A stretch of 35,597 nucleotides of DNA from Bacillota bacterium. Its GTDB lineage: Bacteria; Bacillota_I; Bacilli_A; Izemoplasmatales; Hujiaoplasmataceae. Shown in pieces: positions 1 through 31,868 of this stretch. Position 1 is the stretch's first letter, and each line of letters starts with the position of its first letter. The stretch covers positions 1 through 35,597 of the forward strand of contig JAKPZU010000078.1 in assembly GCA_029559915.1 (NCBI GenBank), written 5' to 3'. The notes beneath the pieces were generated by a model. It was not told the origin of the DNA. It saw nothing but the letters and a program-made list of their open reading frames with translations, and searched no databases. A program made the translations under genes and the position numbers.

Positions 1-412
1 TCATATAAACTGATAACTCAGTTACGTCGCCCAAATAATCTGTATACGTTAGGGTCAGTTGCTTATAAACCTTAACTCTAAAATAGGTTGGAACATTACT
101 TTGAACTATAACATCCACACGAAGATTTTCAATAAAATCATCTGATGTTTCACTATCGATATTAACCAAATAAACTCCTGGTTTATAAACACCAGGAGCA
201 ATCTCTACTTGAGAAGCCGACATTAATCTGGTAGTGCCATCATGAAAATAAATATCCAAATCGACGTCCACAATTCCCATATTCGGATTATATTCTAAGC
301 TTTGTTCAAGCCTTGTCGTAAACCAGGCATAGGTAATAAACACAAAAGAGGAAATTGTTAAGAAAAACAATATCCAAGATAAAACGAAATGCCTTTTAGA
401 TATTTCTATCAT
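1..412 (-). CDS. Exported/surface protein, N-terminal part (truncated by window edge); single N-terminal hydrophobic segment ending ..FITYAWFT, SipW-cognate-like
   Basis: Manual minus-strand translation from ATG at 412: MIEISKRHFVLSWILFFLTISSFVFITYAWFTTRLEQSLEYNPNMGIVDVDLDIYFHDGTTRLMSASQVEIAPGVYKPGVYLVNIDSETSDDFIENLRVDVIVQS... Open to base 1; absent from the ORF track because it runs off the edge. Confidence 0.75.
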   Translation of the reverse strand, partial: MIEISKRHFVLSWILFFLTISSFVFITYAWFTTRLEQSLEYNPNMGIVDVDLDIYFHDGTTRLMSASQVEIAPGVYKPGVYLVNIDSETSDDFIENLRVDVIVQSNVPTYFRVKVYKQLTLTYTDYLGDVTELSVYM

Positions 413-445
413 TGGTTTATCCCCTTTCCAAAAATATCTTTAATA

Positions 446-477
446 TGAAAAATGCCCTTGTCTTCTTAGGACAGCAT
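446..477 (-). terminator. Second tandem terminator-like hairpin
   Basis: Minus: AUGCUGUCCUAAGAAGACAAGGGCAUUUUUC; AUGC/GCAU and UGUC/GACA pair with a 3-nt bulge, then U-run. 3' arm resembles that of hairpin 1 (GACAAGGGCAUUUUU vs GACGAGGGCAUUUUUU). Confidence 0.6.
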
Positions 478-495
478 CTTATATTTCTTTGTAAG

Positions 496-529
496 AAATA
501 AAAAATGCCCTCGTCTTTATGACAACGGC
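496..529 (-). terminator. Riboswitch-associated terminator hairpin 1
   Basis: Minus: GCCGUUGUC-AUAAA-GACGAGGGC followed by AUUUUUUAUUU; 5' arm begins within the aptamer 3' end. Confidence 0.7.
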
Positions 530-594
530 AACTGGCTACCATCTATCGAAGGCCCTATAGCTTTGCGTCACTAGCTTTCACTAGTTTTGCTATT
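526..594 (-). ncRNA. Cyclic di-GMP-I (GEMM-I) riboswitch aptamer
   Basis: Minus strand reads AAAUAGCAAAACUAGUGAAAGCUAGUGACGCAAAGCUAUAGGGCCUUCGAUAGAUGGUAGCCAGUUGCCG. It has the GEMM-I hallmarks: GCAAA, GAAA tetraloop hairpin, GACGCAAAGC, GGGCC receptor side, GGUAGCCxGUUGCCG. Confidence 0.93.
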
Positions 595-886
595 TACGAT
601 TATATTATATTATTAAGGGCAACACTTGTCAATAATATTGTCAAATTTTAGTTTGATTATGCAATAATTTTATAAAATTGGACTTTAGCAACAAATCGAG
701 GAAAGAATATTATTTTCTTTTGCAAAAAATGAGCAAATGACATATAATATGTGACATGTGTTTATAAATATGGAAAATATGGTAAAAATGAGCTTTTCAT
801 CACAAAACATTAACAATATTTTTGTTGTTTTTAGACACAAAAAATGATATGATATATATTGCGAAAATTATTAAGGAGTGGAAAAC

Positions 887-3800
887 ATGAATAACCCATT
901 AGCTAAAAAGATTATAATAATTGGATCGGTAGTTTTAGCCGTTGTCATCGGAGCAATAGTTCTTTCTTTGACAGTCGGCAAAAAAACAATTCCAAACTTG
1001 AAAGATCCTAACGGCATCTTCTATGAAAGATTGGATGAACAAGGCAATGTAATCTATACAATCACAAACGAAGAAATCTATGAACAAATAAAAGGCAACA
1101 ACGGCGTTCAACAATTAATGATGATGGTCGACGCTGAATTGTTGAAAGGATATTTTGACGATATTACTGAAGCGGAGATTACCGATAAGTTGCAAAAACT
1201 TACTTACGGTACTGACGATGATGACGCAATCGCTGAAATGGACCTCGAAGAAAAACAGAATAAAGAAGACGAATTCGCTAGATCAATGGTTTTAGCTGGT
1301 TATGCTGGAAACGAATACGAATATGTCACTTTAATCATCGCCAGAGAAAAATTCGCTTATGAATCTCTATTGGCAAAAATTACGGAAACTGAAGTTGCTG
1401 CAGCATTCATCTCTTCTTATTTCGAAGATATGAAAGCCATCAACATCCGTTTTACTTCGCAAGAAGATGCTAAAGCTGTCTTGGAAAAATACCATTTAGC
1501 TGAAATTTATGGAAACACCTTGGCGCTTTACAGAGGGTATGCTTATAATTCAGAGACTTTAAAAGATATTAACGATGATATCGTTGAAGCCTATCAGTCC
1601 GTTACTGTTTATTACTTTGATGATAGCGACAATATCCGTGATTTCAACAAACAAGTCGTTTATACTTTAGGAACAAATGGTTTTTATACCGATAAAGACT
1701 CAAAGAGTTATTCATTGGACAATGAAGGGAATCTTCTAAACGATGTTCCGGCTATTGTCATTGAAGCAGACTTAATTTTTGAAGATTATGATACTGCCAA
1801 AACTTATAAAGATGCCAACACAACTTACTATACAATGTCCAGAACTGATGCTTTCGATAAAGACGAAAACGTCTTGATCAAGGATTTAGATGGCAATTTG
1901 GTTTACACCTTGAAATCAGACAATAAAGTATATAACACTGAAGACGTAGACGTCACAACAACTGCTAAGTTAATCTTTAACAAAAACTATAAAGAACAAA
2001 AACATGTTTCAACCTTTACACCAAACAATACAGACGAACTTTCTGAACAAGAAATTCTCAACTACTATATCTTGATGTACAATTACGTTTACGGTGAATA
2101 TCGTGACCTATTGCCAGAAGCCGCTACCAAAACTGAACTTACAGCTTTAGACAACGAAAACTTAATGTTTAACTTTGATGAAGTAAATAAAAAATCAGCT
2201 TCTCTGGCTACTTACATATTTAAGACTGTATCGCAAATCAATTCCAGGACTTATTCTTCTAAACCTCAATCTATCGCCGTTTCCCAAGAAACTTTCTACT
2301 ACATGACTTACAAACTTGAAGAACCGACAAAGCTTAATTTAGGAAAACAAGTTCTTGATTTGATTGAACAAGATATCGTCAACCAAGTTCCAAAAACTGT
2401 TGTTGAAAATATAGAACTTCCTACTTCTGGCGAATATAACGCTACTATTGCTTGGGTATCTTCCAATAAAGAAGTTATCGCCAATGATGGTAAAGTAACT
2501 CCTCCAGCAGTAAATTCAATCGTTGACTTGAGCTATACCATCAAGGTATTGGGAGAAACCAGAATAGGCAAGATTACCATCAATGTCTTGACGGATGGCA
2601 ACAACATCAAAGATCTTGATCTGGAAGTACAATATCCTAGCTTGAAAACATTAATCAACAATCAAGAAATTTATGATGCAGTCAGTGCTAAACTGGTTGA
2701 AACCAAAGTCTATGGTTCTACCGGAAGTACCAATATCAATAAAGAACTTGCGACCTTAAGAACAGATAATGGTTTAGAAATCTACGATTATTATCTAGCA
2801 AAAGATTATCGCGAACTTGATGCTACTTACGACAAAGAAAATAATGGCAACAAAACTATTATCGCAAGTTTGGAAAAAACCCTGGATAGCGAAGAAGCTT
2901 TTGAAATCACAGCTGATGATTTATACGCTTACACCTTAGGAAAATCTCCTGCCATTTATACTTTACAGGCAGCACAATTCAAGGAAGTCTTATATTCCTC
3001 ATTCTATGAAGAAAGTTTTGGCACTGAAAGAAACGTTCAAAAGAATAAATCTTTGAGAATGGATGAAATTCATGCAGTTGTAGCCAATTCAAAATCATAT
3101 TATATCTACATGAAGAGCATGTACGAACAATACGGCATGACTTACCCTTATAAATCCTTCTTGGATTATGCTTATTCACAATATGGCACAAAAACTGAAA
3201 CTGAATTGATGCAATATTTCATCGTATCAGAATTAAGACCTTATTATATCAATAGTGTCATCGATGAAGAAAATGTGGTTCAAGCCTTATATTCAATCGT
3301 TGAAGACAACTATAACAACTACTTCTCACTAGATGTAACTCAAATATTGATTTATCTGGATTACAATGAAGACGGCAAACCAGACAATTACAATGATTAT
3401 GTCGCTAATCTAACTCCGGAAGAAAACACTGCATTCCTATCGCAACTTGCGACATTAGAAACAACAATCAATGATTTTGAAGGTGACTTCAAGGCCTTGG
3501 TAACAGCCTATAAGAAAGCAACCAGAGAAGATGCAACTTGGGGAAGCTTCAAACAAACAGGTATTCTACTTCTTACCGAAGAATTGAACATGCCTGATGA
3601 AGAAGATGAAAAAGTTACTCATTCCTTGCATTACAGCGGTAAATACGGTGTAAAAGACTCTTATGACCCTGACTTCACTTCTGCCTTGATTTCTCTATAT
3701 GAAGAATATCGTTTGCCACAAAATCTTGAACTTGCAGAATTGAAATCGGATTTGGTTGTTACACAATTCGGACTTCACCTGATCTTAGCTAAGAAAGGTG

Positions 3801-4219
3801 AAAACTTCGAACAATTCTCCGCTAAATATTTAAGTACGACTGAAGGTGCAGCTGCTTTCGACAGTGCCTCCTACAATGAATTCGATATGCCGACCGTTGA
3901 GCAACTCGAGTTGTATGCAACCTATAAGTTTTATTCAATGGTTTATGATTTGAGCAATGCCGACGTTGAGGATAAATATGGTATCACTGTTCCAAAGATT
4001 CCTGCCTCTGTTACAAAAGCACTTGATTTTTACTTTGAAGATGTTATCAATCAAGTCTATGTACTTGGCACAGCCAATATTGAAATTGCCAGATCAATGG
4101 CTAACGGAAACTTCCTTGGCAATGATTTGATCGATTGGGAAACTTCCGCAATCACGGCTAATCTTCAAACCATCGAAGACGCTTATTACGGTGCGGTATT
4201 ATCTAAATATTTCGAATAA
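887..4219 (+). CDS. Large membrane-anchored PrsA/SurA-like foldase (parvulin-like) with an internal bacterial Ig-like domain
   Basis: N-terminal TM, no lipobox Cys; SurA_N-like helical segments; C-terminal LVVTQFGLHLILAKKGENF resembles the parvulin 'GyHII' strand; Ig-like segment ENIELPTSGEYNATIAWVSSNKEVIANDGKVTPP. ATG at 887 has AAGGAG at 873-878; the track start (GTG 878) overlaps that SD. Confidence 0.7.
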   Translation: MNNPLAKKIIIIGSVVLAVVIGAIVLSLTVGKKTIPNLKDPNGIFYERLDEQGNVIYTITNEEIYEQIKGNNGVQQLMMMVDAELLKGYFDDITEAEITDKLQKLTYGTDDDDAIAEMDLEEKQNKEDEFARSMVLAGYAGNEYEYVTLIIAREKFAYESLLAKITETEVAAAFISSYFEDMKAINIRFTSQEDAKAVLEKYHLAEIYGNTLALYRGYAYNSETLKDINDDIVEAYQSVTVYYFDDSDNIRDFNKQVVYTLGTNGFYTDKDSKSYSLDNEGNLLNDVPAIVIEADLIFEDYDTAKTYKDANTTYYTMSRTDAFDKDENVLIKDLDGNLVYTLKSDNKVYNTEDVDVTTTAKLIFNKNYKEQKHVSTFTPNNTDELSEQEILNYYILMYNYVYGEYRDLLPEAATKTELTALDNENLMFNFDEVNKKSASLATYIFKTVSQINSRTYSSKPQSIAVSQETFYYMTYKLEEPTKLNLGKQVLDLIEQDIVNQVPKTVVENIELPTSGEYNATIAWVSSNKEVIANDGKVTPPAVNSIVDLSYTIKVLGETRIGKITINVLTDGNNIKDLDLEVQYPSLKTLINNQEIYDAVSAKLVETKVYGSTGSTNINKELATLRTDNGLEIYDYYLAKDYRELDATYDKENNGNKTIIASLEKTLDSEEAFEITADDLYAYTLGKSPAIYTLQAAQFKEVLYSSFYEESFGTERNVQKNKSLRMDEIHAVVANSKSYYIYMKSMYEQYGMTYPYKSFLDYAYSQYGTKTETELMQYFIVSELRPYYINSVIDEENVVQALYSIVEDNYNNYFSLDVTQILIYLDYNEDGKPDNYNDYVANLTPEENTAFLSQLATLETTINDFEGDFKALVTAYKKATREDATWGSFKQTGILLLTEELNMPDEEDEKVTHSLHYSGKYGVKDSYDPDFTSALISLYEEYRLPQNLELAELKSDLVVTQFGLHLILAKKGENFEQFSAKYLSTTEGAAAFDSASYNEFDMPTVEQLELYATYKFYSMVYDLSNADVEDKYGITVPKIPASVTKALDFYFEDVINQVYVLGTANIEIARSMANGNFLGNDLIDWETSAITANLQTIEDAYYGAVLSKYFE

Positions 4220-29424: not shown

Positions 29425-30387
29425 TTATTTGTGATTCATCATCTTCCATAAAACCATTGGATGTTCTTTTAATCTATCTGCTATTGCTTTATCAAATAGT
29501 AGTTCTGGATTAAATTCACCAGCATTAAAGGAATCTATATATTTTTGTTCAGTTTCAGTTAACTCAAATAACGTTTCAATAAATTGGCTTACTGTTTGTT
29601 TAAAAGCATCTGTATCTATTCTTTCACCAACATGTAGCAATGGAATAAGATTACGTTTTATTGCACTAAATGACATGTTTTTCATGTTTTTCTTAAACTG
29701 ATTCAATAAATCACCAAATGGTTGAAATTCATTTGACATTAAAAGATAAAATATGCTGCATTTTTTAAGTATATCTAACTCGTTGTCCAGTAGTATTTGA
29801 TTATTAACAAGTTGAAATACGTCGAACACATCTCTTGCAGTAGTTCTTCCTATTAATGCTGCTATCTTACTTCCATATAATTCAACCTTGTTAAGAGCTA
29901 AAATAGATTCATTATCTATTATTTTTGAGCTTAATTTATAGTTCACCGGTTCAAGAATCTGAATACGGTTTGAATAATTCAGTTCAATCTTTATGTTATC
30001 TCTGCTTCCAGCTGCATTTGTATACTTTAAAAGATATGAATCAAGCGTAAAAGTAAATCTTGATTTCGGATCAATAGTATATCCATCTAGAGCAACAAAA
30101 GCACTAATGAGTTTTCTGTGTAGTTCTCTCATCTCCAACATTTCTTCTTTGGAGGAATTAGAATTAAAATCCATATCAATATCAACTGACAGTCTAGGAA
30201 AATCAAACAAGCATAAATTAATTGCTGTCCCACCCTTTAGAACATATTTTCCTTTAAGTTCTTCATTTTCATTAAATAATTTTAGCAGTTCAGATAATCG
30301 AAATACTTTTTCTAAAGTATCTCTATTAAATTTATTATATTGAGCAATCTTAGTTAAGTCTCTTAAATTATAATTTCTCATCTTCAT
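29425..30387 (-). CDS. AbiEii-type nucleotidyltransferase toxin
   Basis: YVLKGGTAINLCLFDFPRLSVDIDMDF, KIELNYSNR, KVELYGSKIAALIGRTTARDVFDVF. Confidence 0.9.
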   Translation of the reverse strand: MKMRNYNLRDLTKIAQYNKFNRDTLEKVFRLSELLKLFNENEELKGKYVLKGGTAINLCLFDFPRLSVDIDMDFNSNSSKEEMLEMRELHRKLISAFVALDGYTIDPKSRFTFTLDSYLLKYTNAAGSRDNIKIELNYSNRIQILEPVNYKLSSKIIDNESILALNKVELYGSKIAALIGRTTARDVFDVFQLVNNQILLDNELDILKKCSIFYLLMSNEFQPFGDLLNQFKKNMKNMSFSAIKRNLIPLLHVGERIDTDAFKQTVSQFIETLFELTETEQKYIDSFNAGEFNPELLFDKAIADRLKEHPMVLWKMMNHK

Positions 30388-31123
30388 TCTCCACCAATAA
30401 CTTGTCTAAATTGTAACAATATAGATTCCATTCTTTGTAGTATTTGTTTAAACGATGTTTTTCGTTTGTGAAATACTTCACACCCTTAATACCTAGGGTT
30501 TTCATTTGATTTAGAATTGAATCATCAACCAAATATCCATCATTAAAATGCGATAGTACTAATCCTACTTTATTAAAGAGAATTTTTTTATTCACAAATA
30601 ATAAATATTCCATAATCTCTGATCCATTGATTACTGGGAGTGCAGATAAATTATAAATTAATTCTTCCATATCGTCATACGATTTTGCATCATCTATACA
30701 ATCTACTATTGTTTTTGGTAGCGTGCTTACGCGTACACCATTAATAGTATCTACATACTTATCATTTGATACATTTTTATACTTATATTCGTTATACTCA
30801 AATGTAAAATCATAAAATCGCTCTATACTAGCAGTTACAACATCATTATAAACTTGATTATTATATCCATAGTATTCAAAGGCACTGTAATGAGATACAT
30901 AAGAACTTTTTGTGATATTTGATGCTATTTCATACTTACTAGGTATAACACCAGTCGTTTCGAAACTCATAGTCACATATAAGTTTTTCTTAACTCTTTT
31001 TATATACCCTTTTTTTAAATAATTTTGCAATGTTTCACGAGCCAAGTTTTCACTATTGGTTATTCCAACAACGAAGGAAAAATCAAACACTCTTTTCTCA
31101 GAAAATATTTCCATGTATTTCAT
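30368..31123 (-). CDS. AbiEi-type antitoxin/transcriptional regulator (winged helix)
   Basis: TLQNYLKKGYIKRVKKNLYVTM, YVSHYSAFEYYGY, INGVRVSTLPKTIVDCIDD; overlaps the toxin gene. ATG 31123 with GGAG at 31131-31134 preferred over GTG 31132. Confidence 0.87.
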   Translation of the reverse strand: MKYMEIFSEKRVFDFSFVVGITNSENLARETLQNYLKKGYIKRVKKNLYVTMSFETTGVIPSKYEIASNITKSSYVSHYSAFEYYGYNNQVYNDVVTASIERFYDFTFEYNEYKYKNVSNDKYVDTINGVRVSTLPKTIVDCIDDAKSYDDMEELIYNLSALPVINGSEIMEYLLFVNKKILFNKVGLVLSHFNDGYLVDDSILNQMKTLGIKGVKYFTNEKHRLNKYYKEWNLYCYNLDKLLVENEDEKL

Positions 31124-31156
31124 AGTTATCACTCCTCATTTATATTTTACCTTATT

Positions 31157-31587: not shown

Positions 31588-31661
31588 TGGAGGACCCTGC
31601 CGGATTTGAACCGGCGGTGGGGGAGTTGCAGTCCCGTGCCTTACCGCTTGGCTAAGGGTCC
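31588..31661 (-). tRNA. tRNA-Cys (GCA)
   Basis: GGACCCTTAGCCAAGCGGTAAGGCACGGGACTGCAACTCCCCCACCGCCGGTTCAAATCCGGCAGGGTCCTCCA; anticodon loop CTGCAAC; encoded CCA. Confidence 0.95.
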
Positions 31662-31707
31662 GTTTAATAAATAAAGACTAAGTTGCCTTAGTCTTTGATT
31701 TAACAAG

Positions 31708-31784
31708 TGGTCGGGAAGACAGGATTCGAACCTGCGACCTCCTGGTCCCAAACCAGGCGCTCTACCAAGCTAAGCTACTTCCCG
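31708..31784 (-). tRNA. tRNA-Pro (TGG)
   Basis: CGGGAAGTAGCTTAGCTTGGTAGAGCGCCTGGTTTGGGACCAGGAGGTCGCAGGTTCGAATCCTGTCTTCCCGACCA. Confidence 0.96.
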
Positions 31785-31791
31785 TATAAAA

Positions 31792-31868
31792 TGGCGCGCT
31801 CATCAGGAGTCGAACCCGAAACCTTTTGATCCGTAGTCAAACGCTCTATCCAATTGAGCTATGAGCGC
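31792..31868 (-). tRNA. tRNA-Arg (ACG)
   Basis: GCGCTCATAGCTCAATTGGATAGAGCGTTTGACTACGGATCAAAAGGTTTCGGGTTCGACTCCTGATGAGCGCGCCA. Confidence 0.96.

Follow-up and report, generated by a model that had tools for sequence, protein, structure and literature searches.

The leader described here is likely to represent a GEMM-I ON switch whose one aptamer controls two intrinsic terminators in series (T1 and T2) by means of the same switching strand, S (GCCGUUGUC). The sequence examined (the window, 35,597 nucleotides in length) is the whole of contig C84 of a draft assembly of 2.49 Mb in 430 contigs, and it belongs to the Izemoplasmatales (wall-less Mycoplasmatota relatives), in agreement with a preliminary description of this DNA, which had placed it near the wall-less bacteria. 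The aptamer, the promoter, the complementarity of both terminator 3' arms to S and the conservation of these elements across the family are seen directly in the sequences, and we infer that both terminators are under ligand control, that a further hairpin (H) acts between them, that the polymerase meets two checkpoints and that the ligand turns expression on.

All parts of the leader are on the minus strand of the window. A perfect sigma-70 type promoter, with the -35 box TTGACA (627..632) and the -10 box TATAAT (604..609) separated by 17 nt, ends about 7 nt upstream of the transcription start, which judging from this spacing should lie at about 598-596. A promoter of the same perfect form is present just 5' of 59 of 74 family aptamers, and the 17-nt spacer is seen in all 70 good promoter matches. 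The c-di-GMP-I (GEMM-I) aptamer claimed in the preliminary description was confirmed with the covariance model RF01051, as cmscan reported a full-length match (524..601; model positions 1-87) scoring 64.6 bits (gathering score, 35) with an E value of 1.3e-10. The aptamer retains C92, the A47-containing GACGCAAAG core and a P2 with a GAAA loop (GNRA type), all of which are kept across the family, while its P3 tetraloop receptor region, as judged from the alignment only, reads CCUUCG...GAUGG, a variant of the CCUAAG/UAUGG type. RF01051 matches were found in 32 of the 34 genomes of the family, and the source genome contains a second one, on contig C243, located 5' of another exported protein.

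The strand S (521..529) is the 3' strand of the aptamer, with C92 at 528, and it serves as the common 5' arm for both terminators; the UUGCCG motif that had been noted as common to the aptamer and the T1 5' arm is accordingly located at the aptamer 3' end. The two 3' arms with their U-runs, quoted earlier as GACGAGGGCAUUUUUU (515-500) and GACAAGGGCAUUUUU (462-448), are both present. The T1 3' arm GACGAGGGC (507..515) pairs with S at 8 of 9 positions with one G.G mismatch and is followed by the U-run UUUUUU (500..505), and the T2 3' arm GACAAGGGC (454..462), which likewise pairs with S at 8 of 9 positions and for which a conserved local partner is absent, is followed by UUUUU (448..452). In folds, the tail of the T1 3' arm together with its U-run pairs with a downstream strand, AAGAAAUAUAAGAUGC, forming the hairpin H (470..512). 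A ribosome-binding site, GGAAAGGGG (421..429), precedes the controlled gene (2..412, with its ATG at 412-410), whose frame is cut by the contig end and specifies the N-terminal part, i.e. at least 137 aa (MIEISKRHF...FITYAWFTT...), of a YAWFT-type exported or membrane-anchored protein, thus bearing out the exported-protein target proposed earlier. The predicted fold of the 192-nt leader is more stable than those of all 200 dinucleotide shuffles (z -3.34), and in its best fold the T2 3' arm is paired with the aptamer 3' strand, rather than two separate hairpins being formed.

The arrangement recurs far more often than chance would allow, as is seen across the family, for which about 75 aptamers were read together with their leaders. 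T1 is formed in these by the last nucleotides of the aptamer, where S has the form GCCGUU[A/G]UC, with GA[U/C]GAGGGC, and in most leaders a second U-run is found 46-87 nt after T1 (median 60). A 9-mer that pairs with S at 8 or more of its 9 positions lies within the 16 nt before the second U-run in 51 of the 62 leaders that have one, compared to 42 of 1502 other U-runs from the same loci, and arms pairing at 9/9 positions are seen in 41 of these 62 leaders versus 1 of the 1502. The final set consists of 50 leaders from 29 genomes, one of the 51 (L078) having been dropped due to the location of its "T2" within a coding sequence. In all 50 leaders the T2 arm pairs with S at 8-9 of 9 positions and no other stretch of the whole leader complements this arm better than S does. 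The best ungapped partner available to it between T1 and T2, on the other hand, averages 6.4/9, compared to 6.5/9 for shuffled sequence; as this is no better than chance, T2 lacks a conserved 5' arm of its own, and two separate local hairpins were ruled out as the main structure. In minimum free energy (MFE) folds of the region from S to T2, S is paired to T2 in 48 of 51 leaders, with H enclosed by this pairing.

The pattern of sequence variation is also consistent with the pairing of S with T2. Across 23 distinct rows, 97.6% of the S:T2 pair cells are paired, whereas slid controls gave 26-89%. U-A alternates with U-G in three of the pairs, and pair 7 changes from A-U to G-C with both sides altered, this being the only one of the nine pairs that changes on both sides. 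The covariation of S nucleotide 7 (A/G) with nucleotide 3 (U/C) of the T2 arm (9/11 versus 1/30, Fisher p 4e-4) is derived from related rows, and because of this relatedness the counts are inflated and the p-value is optimistic. For S:T1, 91.3% of the pair cells are paired and the same pair covaries, but most rows have a G.G mismatch at pair 4, where most of the T2 arms have G.U. T2 thus matches S better than T1 does, which argues against T2 being a mere leftover copy of T1. The preliminary description had suggested that the second hairpin looked ligand-independent or could be a duplicated expression platform. Regarding the first suggestion, since the T2 arm pairs with S and not locally, T2 should also be ligand-controlled, and judging from the sequences it is probably not ligand-independent. 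Of the second suggestion, the likeness of the two 3' arms holds, and follows from their common need to pair with S, but there is only a single 5' arm. That T2 is left over from a tandem riboswitch was ruled out here, as no second aptamer is present and the T1-T2 spacing of 46-87 nt is too short. True tandem aptamers do occur in the family (L010, L024 and L025); L010 (G004) has three, the second and third of which carry C at ligand position 20, and L024 (G002) has two, both of these leaders being located 5' of a TasA-like exported protein.

If T1 alone were controlled by the ligand, then T2 would be an independent fail-safe of the kind seen in tandem terminators and the similarity of its 3' arm to that of T1 would be a remnant of duplication. 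A published precedent for this is provided by Bc1 of Bacillus thuringiensis, where one GEMM-I aptamer is followed by two rho-independent terminators described as "weak-strong", and c-di-GMP causes T1 to unfold but leaves T2 folded, so that T2 hides the response (PMC11218506). Further, T2 of the window can form a weak, bulged local hairpin (AUGCUGUC/GACAAGGGCAU; local MFE -6.1 kcal/mol), and in 25 of 51 leaders at least 6 of the 9 positions of the T2 arm are paired in the local fold. However, a self-contained, aptamer-independent T2 of the Bc1 type is not what the family exhibits, given that the local partners are at the shuffled level and S fits in 50/50 leaders, and the better fit of T2 than of T1 arms to S is not predicted by simple inheritance from a T1 duplicate. 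We therefore regard a fail-safe T2 as unlikely. It is far less probable still that the leader is decayed or non-switching, viz. an attenuator without response to any ligand. The change of the main ligand-contact base could be viewed in this way, and Bc1 is a natural aptamer without measurable regulation (PMC11218506), but the aptamer core, the promoter spacing, S, T1 and T2 are all kept across 29 genomes in front of diverse target genes, and the changed base is nearly fixed rather than drifting. Based on these considerations, control of both terminators through S is the reading that we favor, and in such a case both terminators should respond to the ligand here, unlike the situation described for Bc1.

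In 50 of 51 leaders the hairpin H is seen, with 6 or more pairs joining the T1 tail/U-run to the downstream half, and its mean z against mononucleotide shuffles is -3.5. An exact-complement test, in which the 6-7-mer of each leader was compared with those of others, was uninformative, since with G.U pairs and the U-run present the classes do not separate cleanly. In folds of the growing chain of the window leader, computed as MFE secondary structures that take no account of ligand, tertiary contacts or kinetics, S is initially in the aptamer, pairs with T1 when the chain reaches 507, returns for the most part to the aptamer at about 465, after the formation of H, and pairs with T2 at 454. When the same was done for 50 leaders, all 50 passed through T1 and 35 ended in T2, but S was freed before T2 in just 18. 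Due to this, a resetting of S by H is a weakly supported hypothesis, and the pairing of S with T2 is the firmer of these two results.

The mechanism that we propose is as follows. If the ligand is absent, then S would leave the aptamer and pair with the T1 3' arm, and RNA polymerase would halt at the first U-run. In the case of a polymerase that has moved past T1, H would capture the T1 3' arm and its U-run, thereby freeing S, which would be able to rejoin the aptamer; the freed S could then pair with the T2 3' arm, causing the polymerase to halt at the second U-run. However, if the ligand is bound, then S would be kept in the aptamer, H would be harmless, both T1 and T2 would be blocked and the exported-protein gene would be transcribed. 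The polymerase would thus pass two checks separated by about 60 nt, and this double check may sharpen or tighten the response. C92, which is located within S, pairs with the ligand in GEMM-I structures. The direction of switching, proposed earlier on the basis of bases common to T1 and the aptamer, is supported by analogy with the Geobacter pilM switch, where the terminator sequesters the C92 equivalent (C75) and measurements showed that the ligand turns transcription on (PMC9262584). As T2 uses the same strand S as T1, the same ON-switch logic should also apply at T2. The description of pilM includes only one terminator, compared to the two present here.

An important feature that the preliminary description missed is a change in the ligand pocket. 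At model position 11 of RF01051, which we take to be position 20 of the Vc2 aptamer, the window aptamer has A (at 591), where the consensus is G, and this change makes c-di-GMP uncertain as the ligand. The aptamer thus lacks the G20 of GEMM-Ia and carries the A20 of GEMM-Ib. In the 75 family aptamers, position 20 is A in about 66, C in 3 and G in 6 (three of the latter from one genus and three of another subtype), whereas it is G in 44 of the 46 sister-family aptamers read (36/38 and 8/8); one regex match on the plus strand of L030 is a false aptamer and was left out of the counts. Therefore, the change is specific to this lineage and nearly fixed within it. With A20 in the pocket, either c-di-GMP or 3',3'-cGAMP could bind, and of these we consider c-di-GMP the more likely ligand, although with less than full confidence. 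The alternative, namely that the aptamer senses 3',3'-cGAMP in the manner of GEMM-Ib, and that a wall-less lineage possesses a cGAMP regulon for surface proteins, is less probable. In addition to the prevalence of A20 in this family, an A20G change turns the selectivity of a Geobacter cGAMP riboswitch to c-di-GMP (PMC6456294), a natural A20 aptamer from Desulfobacca acetoxidans has gained affinity for cGAMP, exceeding that of its G20 neighbours (PMC9481103), and A20 and G20 aptamers are found in the same genomes, even in one leader, as if they were reading different inputs. However, position 20 has been described as contributing to selectivity and not as a hard filter, and cGAMP riboswitches can still bind c-di-GMP by protonation of the adenine (PMC9262584). 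The lower P2 pair, the first after A20, is also G-C here, as in the c-di-GMP aptamers, unlike the C15-G40 of Geobacter (PMC6274999), although the latter pair may not be required.

The genes for making second messengers also bear on this question. The preliminary description had made its c-di-GMP reading dependent upon the presence of diguanylate cyclases, and GGDEF genes are found in all 34 family genomes (4-25 in each); a check for GGDEF/EAL and SipW genes showed both to be present in the source genome and in the family. A DNA-pattern search for the Hypr GGDEF motif over the 34 genomes, mostly incomplete drafts, gave five matches, all of them chance-like. At the GGDEF selectivity position, the first 30 family domains have Asp in 30/30 cases with no Ser or Thr, and among the 30 GGDEF domains read from the complete genomes G022 and G028, Ser and Thr are absent from this position wherever the motif is intact. 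Of the domains from G022 and G028, only L228 (G022) combines an intact GGDEF motif with Asn at the nucleotide-selectivity position (GYDVGN). The SMODS/DncV enzymes were rejected as a source of cGAMP, since such synthases are present in only 3 of the 34 genomes and not family-wide. A more speculative and doubtful version of the cGAMP reading would be that an unrecognised cGAMP synthase exists and that the A20 aptamers constitute a family-wide cGAMP switch for surface proteins, which is read twice with resetting by H, so that the ligand is needed twice. The source assembly (G000) itself looks mixed, as it has a size of 2.49 Mb and 5.5% contamination compared to 1.2-1.6 Mb in the genus, and foreign DNA may be the source of its GGDEF genes on contigs C238 and C387 and of its SMODS gene on C405.

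Another GEMM-I subtype, which has G20 and in which the lower P2 pairs are flipped (CC...GG), was also observed in the family at L025 (+, 1707), L091 (-, 468), L113 (-, 497), L117 (-, 477) and L118 (+, 112). The terminator arm of this subtype, GAUUUUGGCUUUUU, base-pairs to the 5' strand of the same aptamer, which places the whole aptamer in the loop, and in four of the leaders (L025, L091, L113 and L117) the G20 aptamer follows an A20 aptamer in tandem. Coexistence of A20 and G20 aptamers in tandem would make sense if they differed in ligand or affinity.

In regard to the genes that are controlled, a near relative (L030) has an intact 302-aa YAWFT-type homologue followed by a gene for a second exported protein. 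Pfam, NCBIfam and PDB sequence searches revealed no significant match for the exported-protein families. The matches of the second target protein in a genome search come mostly from Tenericutes, Izemoplasmatales/Izimaplasma, Bacilli and Bacillota genomes, including Candidatus Izemoplasmatales, HGW-Tenericutes and Mycoplasmatota bacterium strain zrk2. The targets of the A20 switches include YAWFT exported proteins with a large exported partner, a conserved MSQK...SYYG...GNFTF protein, TasA-like short exported proteins and GGDEF-EAL proteins, and SipW-like genes, which are present in 33 of the 34 family genomes as signal peptidases, occur in or near several target clusters. These associations suggest that the switch controls surface or matrix proteins. 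An A20 switch is located 5' of GGDEF-EAL-type protein genes at L088 (G002), L103 (G025) and L108 (G030), and such targets could provide feedback on the second-messenger level. The MSQK protein (L138), representing a second target class, has a predicted fold consisting of a membrane helix and beta strands (mean pLDDT 75); the best PDB match, the archaeal bundling pilin 7ueg (E 7e-4, TM 0.26-0.34), is too weak for the protein to be classified by it. Elsewhere in the window, a divergent gene on the plus strand (887-4219) encodes a predicted membrane-anchored protein of 1110 aa with an atrophied bacterial Ig domain (PF20578), a homologue of which adjoins the switch in L030 too. On the minus strand (29425-31132), an AbiEii-type nucleotidyltransferase toxin gene (PF08843, E 9.5e-24) overlaps an upstream 254-aa gene; the two are likely a type IV toxin-antitoxin pair and they adjoin a tRNA cluster (31591-31868).

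The leader resembles the known GEMM-I riboswitches in its full-length match to RF01051, its P2 GAAA loop, core and C92, and in its proximity to genes for surface/matrix and GGDEF-EAL proteins, but it differs from them in having A20 in place of G20 and in having one aptamer serving two serial terminators through S. With the Geobacter cGAMP riboswitches (e.g. pilM and Gmet_0970) it shares A20 and, by analogy, an ON switch in which C92 is sequestered by the terminator, but its lower P2 pair is G-C and no Hypr GGDEF was found in the family; the cGAMP riboswitches described so far are from several Gram-negative bacteria (PMC9262584). Tandem c-di-GMP-I riboswitches (e.g. Bc3-5, PMC4759541; reviewed in PMC9481103) likewise make more than one termination decision per leader, but each decision has its own aptamer, whereas here one aptamer is used for two decisions. 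A dual terminator in one platform was called rare by the authors of the Bc1 work (PMC11218506). In the open-licence papers searched, we found no description of a platform with two serial terminators sharing an aptamer strand, nor of c-di-GMP or cGAMP riboswitches in Izemoplasmatales. Thus, the aptamer itself is of a known family, and what appears not to have been described before is the double terminator with its shared strand and the occurrence of A20 throughout a lineage of wall-less bacteria.

The near fixation of A20 in a family with canonical diguanylate cyclases raises the question of whether position 20 is a natural ligand selector or whether A20 is serving c-di-GMP signalling. Expression platforms are usually drawn with one terminator per aptamer. 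As the published GEMM-I dual terminator (Bc1) lacks a ligand response, a working counterpart would be useful. A conserved design of one strand and two terminators would provide a simple RNA double check of ligand occupancy for which no second aptamer is needed, and such a design may sharpen or tighten an ON switch.
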